From NCBI GenBank assembly GCA_937890045.1, contig CALBXV010000056.1:1-5702 (forward strand): 5,702 bases of DNA, in the 5' to 3' direction. This stretch comes from an uncultured archaeon (lineage in GTDB: Archaea > Thermoproteota > Nitrososphaeria > Nitrososphaerales > CALBXV01). Every line of letters starts with the position of its first letter. Within the stretch, counting starts at the first letter, position 1. The notes beneath the pieces are model-generated. The model searched no databases and was not told the origin of the DNA. It worked only from the letters and a program-made list of their open reading frames with translations. Below are positions 1 through 5,702 of this stretch, in pieces. Both the position numbers and the translations under genes were made by a program.

Positions 1-297
1 GTTTGGATACCAAGAGTAAATACAGTTGAAGGTATTACACAGGAACATATAGACAAATGGGGATGGAAAGTTAGTAGTAAAGGTTGGGTAAACTATCCAG
101 ATTATCAAGCACGAGTATATAGAAATGTAGATTCAATTCATTGGACAAGAAAAGTTCATGAATATATTGTAGGAACTAAAGAATATTCACATCTTCCACC
201 ACATGAAGAATTAAGTTTATATCATCATAAGACAATAGATAAACAAGAACAACAAAACAGGTTATATAGTGATATTTTGGAGAATAATAGACAATAA
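1..297 (+). CDS. Glycosyltransferase family 2-like protein, C-terminal part (5' end outside window)
   Basis: Frame 1 is open from the first base to TAA at 295-297, giving the last 98 residues of a protein that starts upstream. The visible part resembles the C-terminal half of GT-A inverting glycosyltransferases of family 2 (WaaE/SunS-like and TPR-associated types). It has a Pro-Asp-Tyr-Gln-x-Arg-Val motif (visible residues 33-39), an Ile-x-Trp followed by Val-His-Glu (46-54), and a His-His pair near the end (75-76). In this family the PDxQxR and VHE segments lie after the catalytic core and help shape the acceptor site. The nucleotide-sugar-binding half with its DxD motif is off the window, so donor and acceptor cannot be read. 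The last 29 bases overlap the next gene. The product is probably cytoplasmic, as no hydrophobic segment is visible. The GT2 assignment is fairly secure from the motif spacing; the substrate is unknown. Confidence 0.8.
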   Translation, partial: VWIPRVNTVEGITQEHIDKWGWKVSSKGWVNYPDYQARVYRNVDSIHWTRKVHEYIVGTKEYSHLPPHEELSLYHHKTIDKQEQQNRLYSDILENNRQ

Positions 298-1138
298 ACT
301 TTATCACGTAGATGAGGTTGAAAAATTAGGGTTTGAACAATCTGAGGGATTACGGATACCAGATGAGTATTTAGAATCTCAACAATTTACGATTTTAAGA
401 ATGGCGCACGGTATCGGTGATTGGGGAATTATATCTGCAATGCCTCGATTACTTAAAGAAAAGTATCCTGATTGTAAAGTTTATGTATCATCAAAAGAAA
501 TGGTTTACTCGTTACTTAGTTATTCACATAATAATATGGAAATCATTTTTAAAAATAATCCTTATGTAGATTCATTTAAGGATTATATTCGTGGTGAAAT
601 ATTTCATGACCATTATCGTATATATGAGAAAGATAATCCTAATGTTCCTTTAGTTGAACAAATTTTAAAATTCTGGCAATTTGAACCAAATGAGTATGTA
701 GATAATAAACCTGAGTTATATTGGTCTGATAAAGAAATAGGTATTGGAGATTCAATCATAAGTGAAACAGTTGGTAGTGATGAATTTGGAGCACTTTTAA
801 TTTCTGATAGGTTTGGAACTCAATGTGGAAAGTATGATGAAAAATCTTATAATAGTGATACTGAAAAGATTACGAAGGTATTAAAAGATAATCCACTTCC
901 GTATTTTTATTATTCTTTTAAACAGTTAAAAGATACACCATTTAATTTTATAAATAAGGCTTTGGATTTAAGACATATGGATATACGAATACAATTGTAT
1001 ATTAGATCAAAGGCAAAGTTAAATGTAGGAAATCAATGTGGTACTATGCAAACTGTATGTAGATATTCAGAGGTGCACACAGCACAAAGACAATTTCCTA
1101 TTGGGGGTAATTTTATTAAAAATGAAATTTATTTATGA
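269..1138 (+). CDS. GT9 / heptosyltransferase-like GT-B glycosyltransferase
   Basis: A 289-residue protein. After a short N-terminal extension, a beta strand and glycine turn (Thr-Ile-Leu-Arg-Met-Ala-His-Gly-Ile-Gly-Asp, 41-51) leads into a helix ending in a Pro-Arg-Leu-Leu-Lys-x-Lys-Tyr-Pro pattern and the strand 'KVYVSS' (70-75). This is the opening typical of ADP-heptose:LPS heptosyltransferase-like GT-B proteins, as is the Asn-Pro-Tyr-Val-Asp at 97-101. Near the C-terminus, Arg-Ser-Lys-Ala-Lys-Leu-Asn-Val-Gly-Asn-Gln-Cys-Gly-Thr-Met (246-260) matches the donor-site element, where a typical member has Ser-Gly in place of Cys-Gly. At 289 residues it is somewhat shorter than bacterial GT9 enzymes (about 320-350). 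I took the GTG at 269 as start: the frame is open only from 239, a weak AGG lies at 259-261, and the next in-frame ATG (401) would cut into the first beta strand. The gene overlaps its upstream neighbour by 29 bases and the next by ATGA. Sugar and acceptor are unknown. Confidence 0.68.
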   Translation: MIFWRIIDNKLYHVDEVEKLGFEQSEGLRIPDEYLESQQFTILRMAHGIGDWGIISAMPRLLKEKYPDCKVYVSSKEMVYSLLSYSHNNMEIIFKNNPYVDSFKDYIRGEIFHDHYRIYEKDNPNVPLVEQILKFWQFEPNEYVDNKPELYWSDKEIGIGDSIISETVGSDEFGALLISDRFGTQCGKYDEKSYNSDTEKITKVLKDNPLPYFYYSFKQLKDTPFNFINKALDLRHMDIRIQLYIRSKAKLNVGNQCGTMQTVCRYSEVHTAQRQFPIGGNFIKNEIYL

Positions 1139-2781
1139 GCTATTTGGTCAAATATATGAACAGTAAAGTTATATATACAACTATATTTGGTGATTATGAC
1201 ACTTTAGTAGATCCACATTTTATTGATAAAGGGTGGGACTACATTTGTTTTACTGATAGTGAAAATTTAAGTTCAGATGTATGGGAAATTAGGAAGTGTA
1301 CACCTTATTATACAGATTTAACGAGAAGTGCTAAAAGATATAAAATTTTACCACATAGGTTTTTAAATGAATATGAGTATAGTATTTTTATAGATGGTAA
1401 CTTAACAGTTAGGGGTAATATAGATCAGTTAATTAATAGTTGTAATGTATCTTTCTTTGATCATGCACAGAATAAACTTGACCCTAGAAATTGTATTTAT
1501 AAGGAAGCTGATGCTATTTTTCAATTAGGTAAGAAAAATAATGGTAATTATAAGGATAATCCTGTATTAATAAAAAATCAAATTGATAGATATAAAAAAG
1601 AAGGATATCCTAAGAATAATGGTTTAATTACAGGAATGATTATATTACGGAAACATAATGAAAAAGATTGTATTGAGACTATGGAAGAGTGGTGGAATGA
1701 AATAAAGTATAACAGTAAAAGAGATCAATTAAGTTTTAATTATGCGGCGTGGAAAACTGATTTAAAATTTAGTTATTTGGAAGGTGATTCAAGAAACAAT
1801 AAATGGTTTTTAAGTTTAGGAAAACATACAGGAAAAGGAAAGAAAACTAAAATTGAATACGAACCTATTAATTTAGATTATTTTTTACAAATGGAATTAC
1901 AATCAGGTGGCGGTGGAAAGGAAGTTATTTTAAATGACTACAAGTTAAAAACAGTTGGTGATGTTGTAAATTATTGGAAGAATGAAAAAAATAGACAGAA
2001 GGTTAAATTAGATTCAACTAATTGGCAATATTATAATACAATGATGGCTGGATTTAAGTATGATATTGATGACCATCATGAGATTGGATGGCATAATTTA
2101 ACTGAAGATTATTTTAAGAAAAGGAAAGATATGTCTGATTTAGATATAGAAAAGTTTCTTAGAAATAGTCCTGTAGAGTTTGATAATGGATTTATTAGAC
2201 ACGGTTATCATAGAGCCTGTGCTATGATAGGCAGGTTAATAAGGGGTGAAAAATATTTTCCTTTTTATATGTTAAAGGATAATATTTATAATAAACCACG
2301 TAAGAAGGATGGTATACATAGAGTTTATTCTCCAGTTTCTAAACTTAGAAATATTTTAGAATTGGATTCTATGGGATTTCCGAGGGAAGAATATACTTTA
2401 ACACAAAGTGCTATTCTTACATTAATGGGAATTAGACAAAATGATGATGTAGATGTAATAGTTTCTACAGCACTGAGAAATCAGTTATTAGGTGGAGAGG
2501 TTGAACATATTAAGAAAGGAAATGTAGAAATATTTTCACTCAATAGATTAAAATTTGCATACTTTGATGCACAGAGTGATGATGATTTAATAAAAAATTA
2601 TAGTAAAATAATTGATGGTTATAACTTTTTACAACCACGGTTTTATTTCGCTAGAAAAAATAAATCCAGTGAAAGAGATAAAACAGATTGGGAAGGAATT
2701 TATAATTTCAAAGTTAAGGAATTATATAAGGGTTATCCATTTAATGTATTTACAAAAGAAGAATGGGGTTTTAATGAATAA
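1135..2781 (+). CDS. Multidomain protein: DUF616/TOD1-like glycosyltransferase domain fused to ParB/Srx-like and nucleotidyltransferase-like regions
   Basis: A 548-residue protein. Residues 11-240 look like the DUF616 (TOD1/MUCI70 glycosyltransferase-like) domain: 'VIYTTIFGDYD' at the N-terminus, 'ICFTD' (37-41), Lys-x-Leu-Pro-His-Arg (70-75, KILPHR), the acidic Phe-Ile-Asp-Gly-Asn (85-89) where GT-A enzymes place their DxD-type metal site, and 'RDQLSFNYAAWK' (196-207). A Ser-Gly-Gly-Gly-Gly stretch (257-261) may be a linker. The middle part has His-Gly-Tyr-His-Arg-Ala-Cys-Ala (356-363), recalling the G-x-H-R motif of ParB/sulfiredoxin-like domains. The last part has Asn-Asp-Asp-Val-Asp-Val-Ile-Val-Ser (436-444), then 'GYNFLQPRFYFARK' (495-508) and Arg-Asp-x-x-Asp (514-518), suggesting a LicD/minimal-nucleotidyltransferase-like fold. 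No membrane segment is seen. The start at 1135 overlaps the previous stop as ATGA. An ATG at 1156 (residue 8) is a possible alternative, since the domain's first strand begins only at residue 11. The N-terminal call is good; the functions of the other two regions are inference. Confidence 0.72.
   Translation: MSYLVKYMNSKVIYTTIFGDYDTLVDPHFIDKGWDYICFTDSENLSSDVWEIRKCTPYYTDLTRSAKRYKILPHRFLNEYEYSIFIDGNLTVRGNIDQLINSCNVSFFDHAQNKLDPRNCIYKEADAIFQLGKKNNGNYKDNPVLIKNQIDRYKKEGYPKNNGLITGMIILRKHNEKDCIETMEEWWNEIKYNSKRDQLSFNYAAWKTDLKFSYLEGDSRNNKWFLSLGKHTGKGKKTKIEYEPINLDYFLQMELQSGGGGKEVILNDYKLKTVGDVVNYWKNEKNRQKVKLDSTNWQYYNTMMAGFKYDIDDHHEIGWHNLTEDYFKKRKDMSDLDIEKFLRNSPVEFDNGFIRHGYHRACAMIGRLIRGEKYFPFYMLKDNIYNKPRKKDGIHRVYSPVSKLRNILELDSMGFPREEYTLTQSAILTLMGIRQNDDVDVIVSTALRNQLLGGEVEHIKKGNVEIFSLNRLKFAYFDAQSDDDLIKNYSKIIDGYNFLQPRFYFARKNKSSERDKTDWEGIYNFKVKELYKGYPFNVFTKEEWGFNE
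2765..2768 (+). promoter_or_regulatory. Shine-Dalgarno-like GGGG deciding the start at 2774
   Basis: A purine-rich GAATGGGG lies 5 bases before ATG 2774, inside the end of the upstream gene. It favours 2774 over the in-frame ATG at 2612 as the start of the GT8-like gene and suggests that ribosomes finishing the upstream gene restart here. Confidence 0.55.
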
Positions 2782-3538
2782 TGTAGTATTCATTCCAGCT
2801 ATAAAAATAAGTGAAAGAGGTTCTTCTTATGACTATTCTATTGATAGTTGGAAACAATGGTGTAATAAAAATAATAGTGAATTGTTAGTATTAGATGAGT
2901 TATTATATCCAATAGATTATATGAAAATAACTTGGCAAAGATATTATTTGTTTGATATATTAGAATCTAATAATATTGAATATGACCAAATTCTTATGGT
3001 TGATGCTGATACAATAGTTCATCCAGATTGTTCTAATTTCTTTGAAGAATCTGAAGGTAAATATTGTGGAGTGATGAATGATGGAGATTATGAATGGGTA
3101 TTAAGAAGTATAAAAGGATTTGGTGAAGAGTTATTTGATAAAAGGAAGGTTAAACCTTGGACATATATTAACGGAGGGTTTCAGATTGTCAATGATTCAC
3201 ATAAAGGGTTTTTTAATACTATGAGAGAATATTATTCTGATAATAGTGATTGGATTAATAAAACTATTAGTAAGTTAAAAACGGCTACAGACCAAACTAT
3301 ATTGAATTTTATGTTAAATAAAAATAAGGTTGATGTAAAAATATTACCAAATTGCTATAATTTACAGGATTTATTTAGAAAAAATTTATTATATATAGAT
3401 AAACAATGTTGGTGGACTGATGAATTACATTTTTTAGATGCAGGTTGGGTATATCATTTTAATGCTATACCACAAAATGATATGGGTAGAGATGCAAATT
3501 ATTGGATAAGAAGAACTTATAAGGAGTTATACGGATGA
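2774..3538 (+). CDS. GT-A fold glycosyltransferase, GT8-like
   Basis: A 254-residue protein, most likely a cytoplasmic retaining-type nucleotide-sugar transferase. The first strand is 'NNVVFIPAIKI' (2-12). A helix around residues 50-66 (Lys-Ile-Thr-Trp-Gln-Arg-Tyr) precedes the metal-binding strand 'QILMVDADTIVHP' (72-84), whose Asp77-Ala-Asp79 is the DxD motif that holds the divalent metal and the donor diphosphate. Tyr-Ile-Asn-Gly-Gly-Phe-Gln (131-137) and Thr-Asp-Gln-Thr (172-175) correspond to the donor/acceptor-site 'NxG' and 'DQ' elements of GT8-like enzymes. Leu-Pro-x-x-Tyr-Asn (191-196) and the late 'VYHFNAIPQND' (226-236) complete the fold pattern, with a C-terminal metal-site His at 228. 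The start is ATG 2774, not the in-frame ATG at 2612, because the extra 54 residues lie wholly inside the upstream gene, look like out-of-frame translation, and GGGG at 2765-2768 is well placed for 2774. It overlaps the previous gene by 8 bases. Donor sugar unknown. Confidence 0.8.
   Translation: MNNVVFIPAIKISERGSSYDYSIDSWKQWCNKNNSELLVLDELLYPIDYMKITWQRYYLFDILESNNIEYDQILMVDADTIVHPDCSNFFEESEGKYCGVMNDGDYEWVLRSIKGFGEELFDKRKVKPWTYINGGFQIVNDSHKGFFNTMREYYSDNSDWINKTISKLKTATDQTILNFMLNKNKVDVKILPNCYNLQDLFRKNLLYIDKQCWWTDELHFLDAGWVYHFNAIPQNDMGRDANYWIRRTYKELYG
3522..3526 (+). promoter_or_regulatory. Shine-Dalgarno sequence AGGAG for the gene starting at 3535
   Basis: AAGGAG with an 8-base gap to ATG 3535 is the strongest ribosome-binding site in the window. 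It lies within the last codons of the GT8-like gene and supports both the 3535 start and a bacterial or phage type of translation. Confidence 0.75.
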
Positions 3539-4443
3539 AAGTAGCATTCTTTTCAGAAACAGGGGATAATAAAAAGTATCCAAAAAACTTTCCAAACTCT
3601 CGTACAGAAGTGGCATGGTGTTTGGCACTCGATGCACCAATGTGTAGTTTACATGCCAGACCACAGGAACATTTTGATTTAGGTATTGTTATTATTCCAA
3701 AGGAACAACCAAAAGTAAGTTTAAATTATATACGAGGTTGTTGTGATAAGGTGGCAGTAATGCAAGAAGGTCCACATTGGTACTTTCAAGATTATGAGAT
3801 AGATAAGCAGTTTCATTATTATAATACCTTGATGGATGCAGATTGGGTTTATTGTCATAATGAATCTGATGTAAATTATTATTTAGGATTAGGTTGTAAG
3901 GATGTAAGAGTGATGAGAAGTTTGATGATACCATATAACTTAGTTCCAAGAAGTGAGTGGGGTGATGCAGTTATCATTGGTGGAAACTTTGTTAGTTGGT
4001 ATGGTGGATTTGATTCTTATATTGTGGCGAGAGAAATAGGTGATCCAATTTGGGCCCCGTCTATGGGAAGAAAACAACCTCAAGAGGATGCAATTGAAGA
4101 TATTAAGTATATGCCTTATATGAATTGGAGAGAATGGATTGTAGCACTTAGTCAGTTTAATATAGGTGTTCATTTAATGAGAACACATGCTGCTGGAACA
4201 TTTGCTATGAATTGTGCTTGGCATGGTATTCCTTGTATTGGTTATAAAGGATTAGATACGCAGGAGAATTGCCATCCACTTACTACAGTAAAAGTTGGTG
4301 ATTTGGATCATGCAGTAGAAATTGCTAATAAGTTAAAACAGAATAAATTTTATAATATGTGTAGTCAAACTTCTCGAGAAAGGTTTGAAAGATTTTATAC
4401 TGAAGAAGAATGGTTAGAAAATTGGGAGTTACAATGGAGATAG
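3535..4443 (+). CDS. GT-B-like glycosyltransferase (GT4/GT1-type C-terminal domain)
   Basis: A 302-residue protein. The N-terminal half (about 1-135) has alternating strands such as 'KVAFFSETGD' (2-11), 'HFDLGIVIIPKE' (46-57) and 'KVAVMQEGPHWYFQDY' (72-87), consistent with an acceptor-side Rossmann-like domain. The C-terminal half begins with 'DAVIIGGNFVSWYGGFDSY' (144-162). It then has a helix and 'FNIGVHLMRTHAAGTFAMNCAWHGIPCIG' (208-236, summarised by its Ala-Ala-Gly-Thr-Phe and His-Gly-Ile-Pro-x-Ile-Gly elements). In GT-B enzymes such as GT4 this region places small residues against the donor phosphate and ends in G-x-P-x-I/V-G. 'RERFERFYTEEEWLENW' (281-297) is the final helix, typical of the GT4 end. 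The classical E-x7-E motif of retaining GT4 enzymes is not evident, so the family call is by fold only. The start is ATG 3535, which overlaps the previous stop (ATGA) and has AGGAG at 3522-3526. It could instead be a glycan-binding relative without catalysis. Confidence 0.66.
   Translation: MKVAFFSETGDNKKYPKNFPNSRTEVAWCLALDAPMCSLHARPQEHFDLGIVIIPKEQPKVSLNYIRGCCDKVAVMQEGPHWYFQDYEIDKQFHYYNTLMDADWVYCHNESDVNYYLGLGCKDVRVMRSLMIPYNLVPRSEWGDAVIIGGNFVSWYGGFDSYIVAREIGDPIWAPSMGRKQPQEDAIEDIKYMPYMNWREWIVALSQFNIGVHLMRTHAAGTFAMNCAWHGIPCIGYKGLDTQENCHPLTTVKVGDLDHAVEIANKLKQNKFYNMCSQTSRERFERFYTEEEWLENWELQWR
4424..4428 (+). promoter_or_regulatory. Shine-Dalgarno sequence GGGAG deciding the start at 4434
   Basis: GGGAG stands 5 bases before ATG 4434 and lies downstream of the alternative ATG at 4410, so it can serve only the later start. 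This agrees with the family N-terminus beginning directly at the Rossmann strand. Confidence 0.65.
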
Positions 4444-5309
4444 GTATAATAGGATTTGGTTATGTAGGAAAGGCTATGCATTCGGTTCTTTCACCACATT
4501 ATAAAGTTAGAACATATGATACAAATGGTAATGGGTCGAGTACTAAAGTTGATGATGTAATTAAAAAGTCAGAAGTTATATTTGTATGTGTTCCAACGCC
4601 AATGAAAAAAGATGGTAGTTGTGATACATCTATAGTAGAGAAAGTAATTAAAGATATTAATAAAACTGCTAAAGGTAGATGGTATAATCCAGATTCAGAA
4701 TTAAAAACAGTAGTAATAAAATCAACTGTTCCACCAGGAACTACTGAAAGGTTGAATAAAGAATATAAAAAGAAACGAGGAGTAGTTACTGTAGTTTTTA
4801 ATCCTGAATTTCTTACTGAAAGACACTTTTTAGAAGATATAAAAAATCCTAAACGTATTATACTGGGAGGTCCGAGACCACAAACTACAACTCTTAAACA
4901 ATTATATTCAAGAATATATCCTACAACACCTATTATTAAAACAGGTTCAAATACGGCAGAAATGGTTAAGTATTTTATTAATGCATTTTTGGCAACAAAA
5001 GTATCATTTGCTAATGAAATTTATAAGATTTGTGAGAAGTTAGATATAGATTATGATAAGGTTGTAGAGTATGTTTTATATGATGATAGGATAGGCAAAT
5101 CACATTTAACAGTTCCAGGTCCAGATGATGAGTTTGGATTTGGTGGACATTGTTTACCCAAAGATTTAAATGCACTAATAAGTGTAGCTGTAGAAAATTC
5201 GTTAGGTCTTTATATTAATGTTTTATCGGGAGTATTAGAAACTAATGATAAGGTTAGAAAAAATAGAGATTGGGAAGAAATGAAAGGGAGAGCAGTAGTA
5301 GATGAATAA
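4434..5309 (+). CDS. UDP-glucose/GDP-mannose dehydrogenase family protein, short form without C-terminal UDP-binding domain
   Basis: A 291-residue protein of the family that oxidises the C6 hydroxyl of a nucleotide sugar to a carboxylate in two NAD-dependent steps. The Rossmann domain opens with Gly-Phe-Gly-Tyr-Val-Gly (7-12), and Asp29 ends the second strand, as expected for NAD. Next come 'VIFVCVPTP' (48-56), Ser-Thr-Val-Pro-Pro-Gly-Thr-Thr (97-104) and Asn-Pro-Glu-Phe-Leu (123-127), whose Glu125 lies at the catalytic-site position. The central helical domain has 'AEMVKYFINAFLATK' (175-189), with Lys179 and Asn183 matching the substrate-binding Lys and Asn. The catalytic loop is Gly-Phe-Gly-Gly-His-Cys-Leu-Pro-Lys-Asp (235-244), with Cys240 as the nucleophile. 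Usual members are 390-460 residues; this one stops right after the central domain. The start is ATG 4434 rather than 4410, since the family begins at the 'IGIIGFGYVG' strand and GGGAG at 4424-4428 fits. It overlaps the upstream gene by 10 bases. Family certain; substrate open. Confidence 0.9.
   Translation: MEIGIIGFGYVGKAMHSVLSPHYKVRTYDTNGNGSSTKVDDVIKKSEVIFVCVPTPMKKDGSCDTSIVEKVIKDINKTAKGRWYNPDSELKTVVIKSTVPPGTTERLNKEYKKKRGVVTVVFNPEFLTERHFLEDIKNPKRIILGGPRPQTTTLKQLYSRIYPTTPIIKTGSNTAEMVKYFINAFLATKVSFANEIYKICEKLDIDYDKVVEYVLYDDRIGKSHLTVPGPDDEFGFGGHCLPKDLNALISVAVENSLGLYINVLSGVLETNDKVRKNRDWEEMKGRAVVDE
5286..5290 (+). promoter_or_regulatory. Weak, distant Shine-Dalgarno-like GGGAG for the gene starting at 5302
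   Basis: AAAGGGAG ends 11 bases before ATG 5302, longer than the usual 5-9 base gap. Initiation here probably depends on coupling with the upstream gene, whose stop overlaps the start by 8 bases. Confidence 0.4.
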
Positions 5310-5702
5310 ATATCAATTATCAGAATTAGACTTAAAGAAGTGTGCATTAATAATAAATAAATTAGATAGAGTTGTTAGAGATTTAAGTACTTCAAATAAT
5401 GAGAGTATAAATCACGGTAGAGCAGTTTATTGGGATAAGAAAAATAAACTTTATTATAAGGTTTTTAATAAGGGTTATATTAGAAGACAGAATTTTATAA
5501 CTGCATATGAGGCTGGATTTTTTGATAAATTAGCTCCAGCTCTTATTGGTTTAATTTACGATGATGAAGATGTAGTTGGATATGTAACTAAAGAGGGTAA
5601 ACTATTATCAGACTCAGAATTCGATTTTAAGGTGGTTCCTGAGGGTTTCCTGACACTTTTAAAAGAGACTATTAAAGATACTAACCTATTTTATTACGAC
5701 CT
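5302..5702 (+). CDS. Possible protein kinase/phosphotransferase-fold protein, N-terminal part (3' end outside window)
   Basis: The frame from ATG 5302 is open to the window end, giving 133 full codons with no stop. After a helical N-terminus (about 7-32), there is a strand pair 'RAVYWDKKNKLYYKVFNK' (40-57) with Lys53 in a Tyr-Tyr-Lys-Val-Phe context. A helix follows containing Glu70 ('FITAYEAGFFDKLAPAL', 65-81). Then 'LIGLIYDDEDVVGYVTKEG' (81-99) resembles the last N-lobe strands and hinge of aminoglycoside-phosphotransferase or small-molecule kinase folds, and the final visible residues Phe-Tyr-Tyr-Asp (130-133) could be the start of a catalytic loop of D-L-x-x-x-N type. Spacing from Lys53 to Asp133 (80 residues) is plausible for a kinase. 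The ATG overlaps the previous gene by 8 bases (stop TAA 5307-5309), and GGGAG at 5286-5290 is somewhat distant. It could act as a sugar or lipid kinase in the same glycan pathway. This is a fold-level guess, as the decisive C-lobe is missing. Confidence 0.45.
   Translation, partial: MNKYQLSELDLKKCALIINKLDRVVRDLSTSNNESINHGRAVYWDKKNKLYYKVFNKGYIRRQNFITAYEAGFFDKLAPALIGLIYDDEDVVGYVTKEGKLLSDSEFDFKVVPEGFLTLLKETIKDTNLFYYD

Follow-up and report, generated by a model that had tools for sequence, protein, structure and literature searches.

A conserved two-part module and its kinase-like partner in the glycan islands of uncultured phages

We studied the protein encoded at positions 1135..2781 (forward strand) of a 5,702-nucleotide stretch of DNA, hereafter the window (contig CALBXV010000056.1 of assembly GCA_937890045.1, positions 1 to 5,702), catalogued under an uncultured archaeon and sitting in a 29,152-base virus record. 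This 548-residue protein joins an N-terminal glycosyltransferase to one conserved module (residues 241-548), and its anatomy is well supported. The main new finding is that the module has a constant partner, a kinase-like domain encoded alongside it in phage sugar islands: the two are added at different island genes and are gained and lost together. A preliminary description of the window, made from the letters alone, had read the protein as a three-part fusion that might carry out a LicD-type phosphoryl transfer; it is partly supported, in that its nucleotidyltransferase (NTase) part has support and its LicD part has none, and it had missed the kinase-like partner.

Coupled presence of the module and the kinase-like domain

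The kinase-like domain belongs to a 588-residue gene lying 2.5 kb downstream of the 548-residue open reading frame (ORF), which also encodes a GT2 domain and, towards the C-terminus, one more region. Its first part lies at 5302..5702 (forward strand), where the window end cuts it, and the gene corresponds to L011:6372-8138 (minus strand in L011). K53, D133 and D150 were invariant in 17 aligned rows, together with a YD...N-type motif and an ID motif; these three residues may correspond to the Lys, catalytic Asp and metal-binding Asp of the protein-kinase fold. Profile matches were weak: Pkinase was hit by one of the 17 rows (E 0.067) and Ser/Thr kinases of the PDB at E 0.08-0.7, and tblastn of the domain against 50,697 annotated phage records gave no match.

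Of 31 virus records that bear the module (the window's own and those of L014-L043), 29 had a single copy of the domain; the two misses were fragments of 24.7 and 14.7 kb. The module was found in six of 13 further kinase-bearing records, and the seven without it were all fragments of at most 14.6 kb. Among 38 kinase loci, 18 were fused to GT2 and 19 to the module, with one standing alone (37/38 fused). Of 14 records with the kinase-like domain off the module, 13 showed the GT2 fusion (the window's own and twelve others), a count that took in all but the record of L014.

Two control sets showed the same pattern. In the best 80 of 319 GT2 loci, 16 carried the kinase-like domain as a fusion and 64 were bare. 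Ten of the 16 fused loci were in records where the module is known, and the records of the other six are at most 14.6 kb long; the module is known in none of the records of the 64 bare loci (Fisher 4.9e-9). This value rests on lists of module records made by pattern scanning: "known" means listed by the module scans or searches, and one pattern scan missed at least six module records. None of the contigs of these 64 bare loci was in the list of a whole-collection kinase scan, which recovers 25 of 28 known positives (the window's own record aside). The second set comprised 19 loci of a GT8-like neighbour gene, nine with the module and ten without. None of the ten module-less contigs was in the whole-collection kinase list; the 19 stretches themselves are uninformative on this point, as the kinase-like domain lies farther away and was in none of them, even the nine with the module. 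The comparison of 29/2 (module records) with 0/10 (module-less GT8-like loci) gave Fisher 5.9e-8, only indicative because it mixes two kinase scans. Six of the ten module-less loci keep the same island with the PF04765 gene, which in all five listed module-less islands was a bare gene of 229 aa flanked by the same genes; the other four had GT2 as a bare gene of 395-405 aa. In one record, 3300030106_006270 (95,890 bases), both genes were bare, PF04765 in L206 and GT2 in L244.

Because the module and the kinase-like domain come and go together, we propose that they act in one process, and their coupled gain and loss is the strongest evidence for it. This evidence has its limits: the records are mostly fragments, many of them closely related, the scans were made by pattern, and strong co-occurrence with the module is found for other genes of the island too.

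Extent, conservation and fusion partners of the module

A search with residues 245-548 (E<=0.001) matched 393 metagenomic and genomic proteins, with Tara Oceans among the sources; 104 of the 120 listed were 530-575 aa long. No Pfam family reached its cut-off in the module of the window protein, and no PHROG matched it below E 0.3. Pattern scans yielded one confirmed module locus in the genomes of 84,980 species, that of the metagenome-assembled genome "bacterium TMED198", and 31 in IMG/VR contigs, whereas tblastn of the module at E<=1 against the 50,697 annotated phage records gave no match. As far as these searches reach, the module is therefore a phage-borne family known from metagenomes.

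The three motifs named in the preliminary description lie where it placed them, HGYHRACA at residues 356-363 (2200..2223, forward strand), NDDVDVIVS at 436-444 and GYNFLQPRFY at 495-504, and they are not chance occurrences. Thirteen module positions (H356, H359, R360, S425, R434, N436, D438, D440, D483, F498, P501, Y504 and F505) were identical in 174 of 174 distinct sequences.

The architectures of 31 loci were compared (L013-L043, setting aside L002-L010, which share contigs, L044, cut by a contig end, and L045/L052); several look near-duplicate, such as L018/L019, L021/L022 and L025/L026, among others. DUF616 plus module occurred in ten loci, GT2 plus module in five and the module alone in one. 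The kinase-like domain was fused to the module in the remaining 15: DUF616+module+kinase-like in two, module+kinase-like in three, kinase-like+module in two, a module+kinase-like gene adjacent to a separate DUF616 gene in four, and an extra N-terminal domain, GT8-like, followed by module and kinase-like domain in four. The two halves of the module were together in all 31 loci, in a search that used the whole module. The "three parts" are therefore better seen as a glycosyltransferase plus one two-part module.

Domains of the 548-residue protein

Residues 5-232 (1147..1830, forward strand) are a GT-A glycosyltransferase of the PF04765 (DUF616/TOD1/MUCI70) family, as had been proposed. The PF04765 hidden Markov model matched residues 56-209 with E 1.1e-15 and 58.2 bits, above the Pfam gathering cut-off of 21.4; the predicted fold was GT-A and the D-x-[DEN] motif reads DGN.

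Residues 400-548 (2332..2778, forward strand) are predicted to form a minimal nucleotidyltransferase, and the earlier reading of this region as NTase-like is supported. The predicted structure has the NTase fold, and the small residue, D-x-D pair and third acid of the superfamily were all found (2407..2529, forward strand): S425, D438 and D440 were invariant, and the third acid is probably position 465 (E in 163, D in 9 and H in 2 sequences; E or D in 172/174). The PDB gave 44 rows at E<=10 (best E 0.13): 40 NTase-superfamily enzymes, judged in part by their titles, and four unrelated proteins. TM1012 headed the VIA rows, and the region is closer to TM1012, MenT1 and LnuA than to LicD/FKRP. 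The PF14907 (NTP_transf_5) model had no match in the contig at E<=10.

The first half of the module, residues 241-393 (1855..2313, forward strand), may be ParB/sulfiredoxin-like, a plausible, unproven and weakly supported assignment. The G-x-H-R motif on which it had been based is retained in part: the HR pair of this candidate Box II (GxxR) motif was found in 174/174 sequences and the G in only 15, position 357 being S in 152, N in 6 and C in 1. Judged by eye, the succession helix - PVxF - strand - HxxHR helix - PFYM strand agrees with the ParB/sulfiredoxin core. The single VIA row covering this half was a CTP-bound ParB-family protein, and three BFVD rows were named ParB. PF02195 had no match in the contig at E<=10, in a search of low sensitivity that also missed a second ParB-like gene (see below). 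A helical insertion in this half carries a GGGGKE motif (residues 258-263; 1906-1923) and a DHHxxGW-type motif (residues 314-319; 2074-2091), and G258, K262, H314, H315, G318 and W319 were each found in 174/174 sequences.

That second gene, of 336 aa, is in L011 at contig positions 4320-5330 (minus strand), outside the window, with DGDHR followed by DYDDLD; 22 proteins matched it. In the PDB its profile matched nothing at E<=10 except two entries of SbnI, a serine kinase with the ParB/sulfiredoxin fold (E 0.63 and 0.77), aligned at DGDHR, and it scored 30.0 against the ParB profile and at most 18.0 against each of three other profiles. From these matches we read it as a ParB-like and NTase-like fusion whose ParB part is fairly clear. 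The window module has the same motif order, and a comparison of the two sequences did not show homology. The 336-aa gene occurred in one of the 31 module records, its own, and also near the module in L045/L052.

Proposed function and alternatives

That glycosyltransferases of a sugar island are joined to a kinase-like enzyme and an NTase points to a phosphorylation and, after it, the transfer of a nucleotidyl or phosphoryl group, which would give a phosphate-linked decoration, and we give about an even chance to a cassette in which a phage kinase and NTase add such a group to a surface glycan. For its catalysis, step order, substrate, donor and role at the host surface we infer the following scheme. 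The 548-aa protein would be an enzyme of a phage glycan island, a GT-A glycosyltransferase carrying the 300-residue module, whose first half would bind nucleoside triphosphate (NTP) and is possibly ParB/sulfiredoxin-like and whose second half is the NTase. The kinase-like domain would work with the module, most likely phosphorylating a small alcohol or a sugar hydroxyl; the NTase half, using NTP, would then activate the phosphorylated group as a nucleoside diphosphate-linked donor or join it to the growing glycan, and the glycosyltransferase would add the sugar that carries or receives it. The infected cell would end up with a surface glycan that bears phosphate or phosphodiester groups. LnuA and ANT transfer adenosine monophosphate (AMP) onto hydroxyls of sugar-like drugs and are among the nearest NTases, so that direct nucleotidylylation of a sugar is a possible variant by analogy. 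We put forward only tentatively, at somewhat less than an even chance, the wider view of an undescribed glycan-decoration system of uncultured T4-like phages, in which the kinase-like domain, a ParB/sulfiredoxin-fold domain turned enzyme and the NTase form an obligate cassette that plugs into DUF616, GT2 and GT8-like enzymes and places a phosphate-linked substituent on the host surface, the divergent ParB-NTase gene doing a parallel step.

There is an appreciable, though lesser, chance that residues 241-399 form a helical domain of another kind, only the NTase half having been read correctly; the order of helices and strands, the ParB-named rows and the clearer ParB motif that precedes the DDxD motif in the 336-aa gene all speak against it. 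A transfer of phosphocholine-like groups straight onto the glycan by a LicD/FKRP-type phospho-alcohol transferase, in a Lic1-like system, is unlikely: FKRP ranked well under TM1012, MenT1 and LnuA in VIA, PF04991 had no match in the contig at E<=10, hhalign of LicD with the NTase part stayed at noise level, and the motif of the fetched LicD relatives, GTLLGaiRDkkLIPWDHDlD, is unmatched by the window's QSAILTLMGIRQNDDVDV.

Two further explanations leave the fold as it is and change its role. ParB folds can serve as NTP switches (PMC12704722), and the module is swapped among DUF616, GT2, GT8-like and kinase-like partners, as might be expected of a non-catalytic add-on that senses nucleotides or acts as a scaffold to regulate the attached enzymes. 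We consider this improbable, as invariant S425, D438 and D440 would be unusual in a degenerate regulatory domain and the module-less relatives keep bare glycosyltransferases without the kinase-like domain. Even less probable is a cassette that modifies nucleic acid or protein, such as tRNA or a phage DNA base; CCA-adding enzymes and poly(A) polymerases, which act on RNA, are among the fold rows and some phage glycosyltransferases act on DNA (PMC7029224), but the module is seen fused to glycosyltransferases or to the kinase-like domain, and sugar-nucleotide genes (GDP-mannose dehydratase, UDP-glucose dehydrogenase and DegT) lie around it.

Gene context

The ORF at 1135-2781 is real, starts with ATG and is open throughout. 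Its true start may be 1156 instead of 1135, because most full-length homologues in the alignment begin at the residue matching M8 and residues 1-7 of the predicted structure have a confidence score (pLDDT) below 50. Upstream, a 289-aa gene (269-1138) without a Pfam match, which presumably resembles GT9, overlaps it by 4 bases and has a relative in 27 of the 31 module loci. Downstream, a GT8-like gene (2774..3538, forward strand; PF01501 E 1.1e-4, below cut-off) overlaps it by 8 bases; its start at 2774 is our reading of the sequence, the ORF list giving TTG at 2612, and a relative occurs in 29/31 loci, in four of these possibly as a fused domain. A 302-aa gene follows (3535-4443) with no Pfam match above cut-off; we assume that it resembles GT4, and 25/31 loci have a relative.

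The virus record encodes a family B DNA polymerase, a clamp-loader-like AAA protein (with a Gp44_lid match just under cut-off) and a PD-(D/E)XK nuclease, and from this gene content the phage is probably T4-like. Sugar genes make up the remainder of the region, an island with GDP-mannose dehydratase, epimerase, DegT aminotransferase, methyltransferase, UDP-glucose dehydrogenase and several glycosyltransferases. In related islands we found a carbamoyltransferase (L002:8054-10291), a PIG-L deacetylase (L007:8770-9405) and an asparagine-synthase-like gene (L006:6630-8009), possibly for further sugar decorations. The module-less L202, L203, L205 and L206 have, after the GT8-like gene, a small gene that looks like a cytidylyltransferase, with the motif MHPGH; it may provide another way of activation. 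The module-bearing L002 also has a CTP_transf_like gene.

Comparison with known systems

Marine phages carry many sugar genes, and the module with its kinase-like domain offers a concrete, testable unit; if active, it would credit a ParB-like fold with an enzymatic role and phages with a phosphate-decoration route of their own. Among the closest parallels are the O-chain/glycosyltransferase islands of pelagimyophages, marine myophages whose lipopolysaccharide-type genes include GT8 and UDP-glucose dehydrogenase and whose glycosyltransferases have been proposed to modify the O-chain of the host and shut out competing phages (PMC7029224). The consulted part of that article holds nothing on the module or the kinase-like domain, and ParB is absent from its main text.

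Residues 5-232 agree with the TOD1/MUCI70 family in sequence and fold, but here they are joined to the ParB-like/NTase module, the related phage islands having the bare gene. With SerK, SbnI, sulfiredoxin and ParB-CTPase the first half of the module tentatively shares an HR motif starting a helix between two strands; it differs from them in the mostly S-substituted G of the motif, the long helical insertion and the NTase fusion. The words "nucleotidyltransferase" and "glycosyltransferase" are not in the main text of PMC12704722.

LicD/FKRP phospho-alcohol transferases have in common with the second half the NTase superfamily and the glycan setting, and differ from it in the weaker structural match, the absence of PF04991 and the unmatched LicD motif. 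The kinase-like domain near the module recalls, in our view, LicA. The minimal NTases TM1012, MenT1, LnuA and ANT(2'') are alike in predicted fold and in the S...D-x-D motif, whereas the domain described here has no sequence-level match to PF14907 and is fused to glycosyltransferases and a kinase-like domain.
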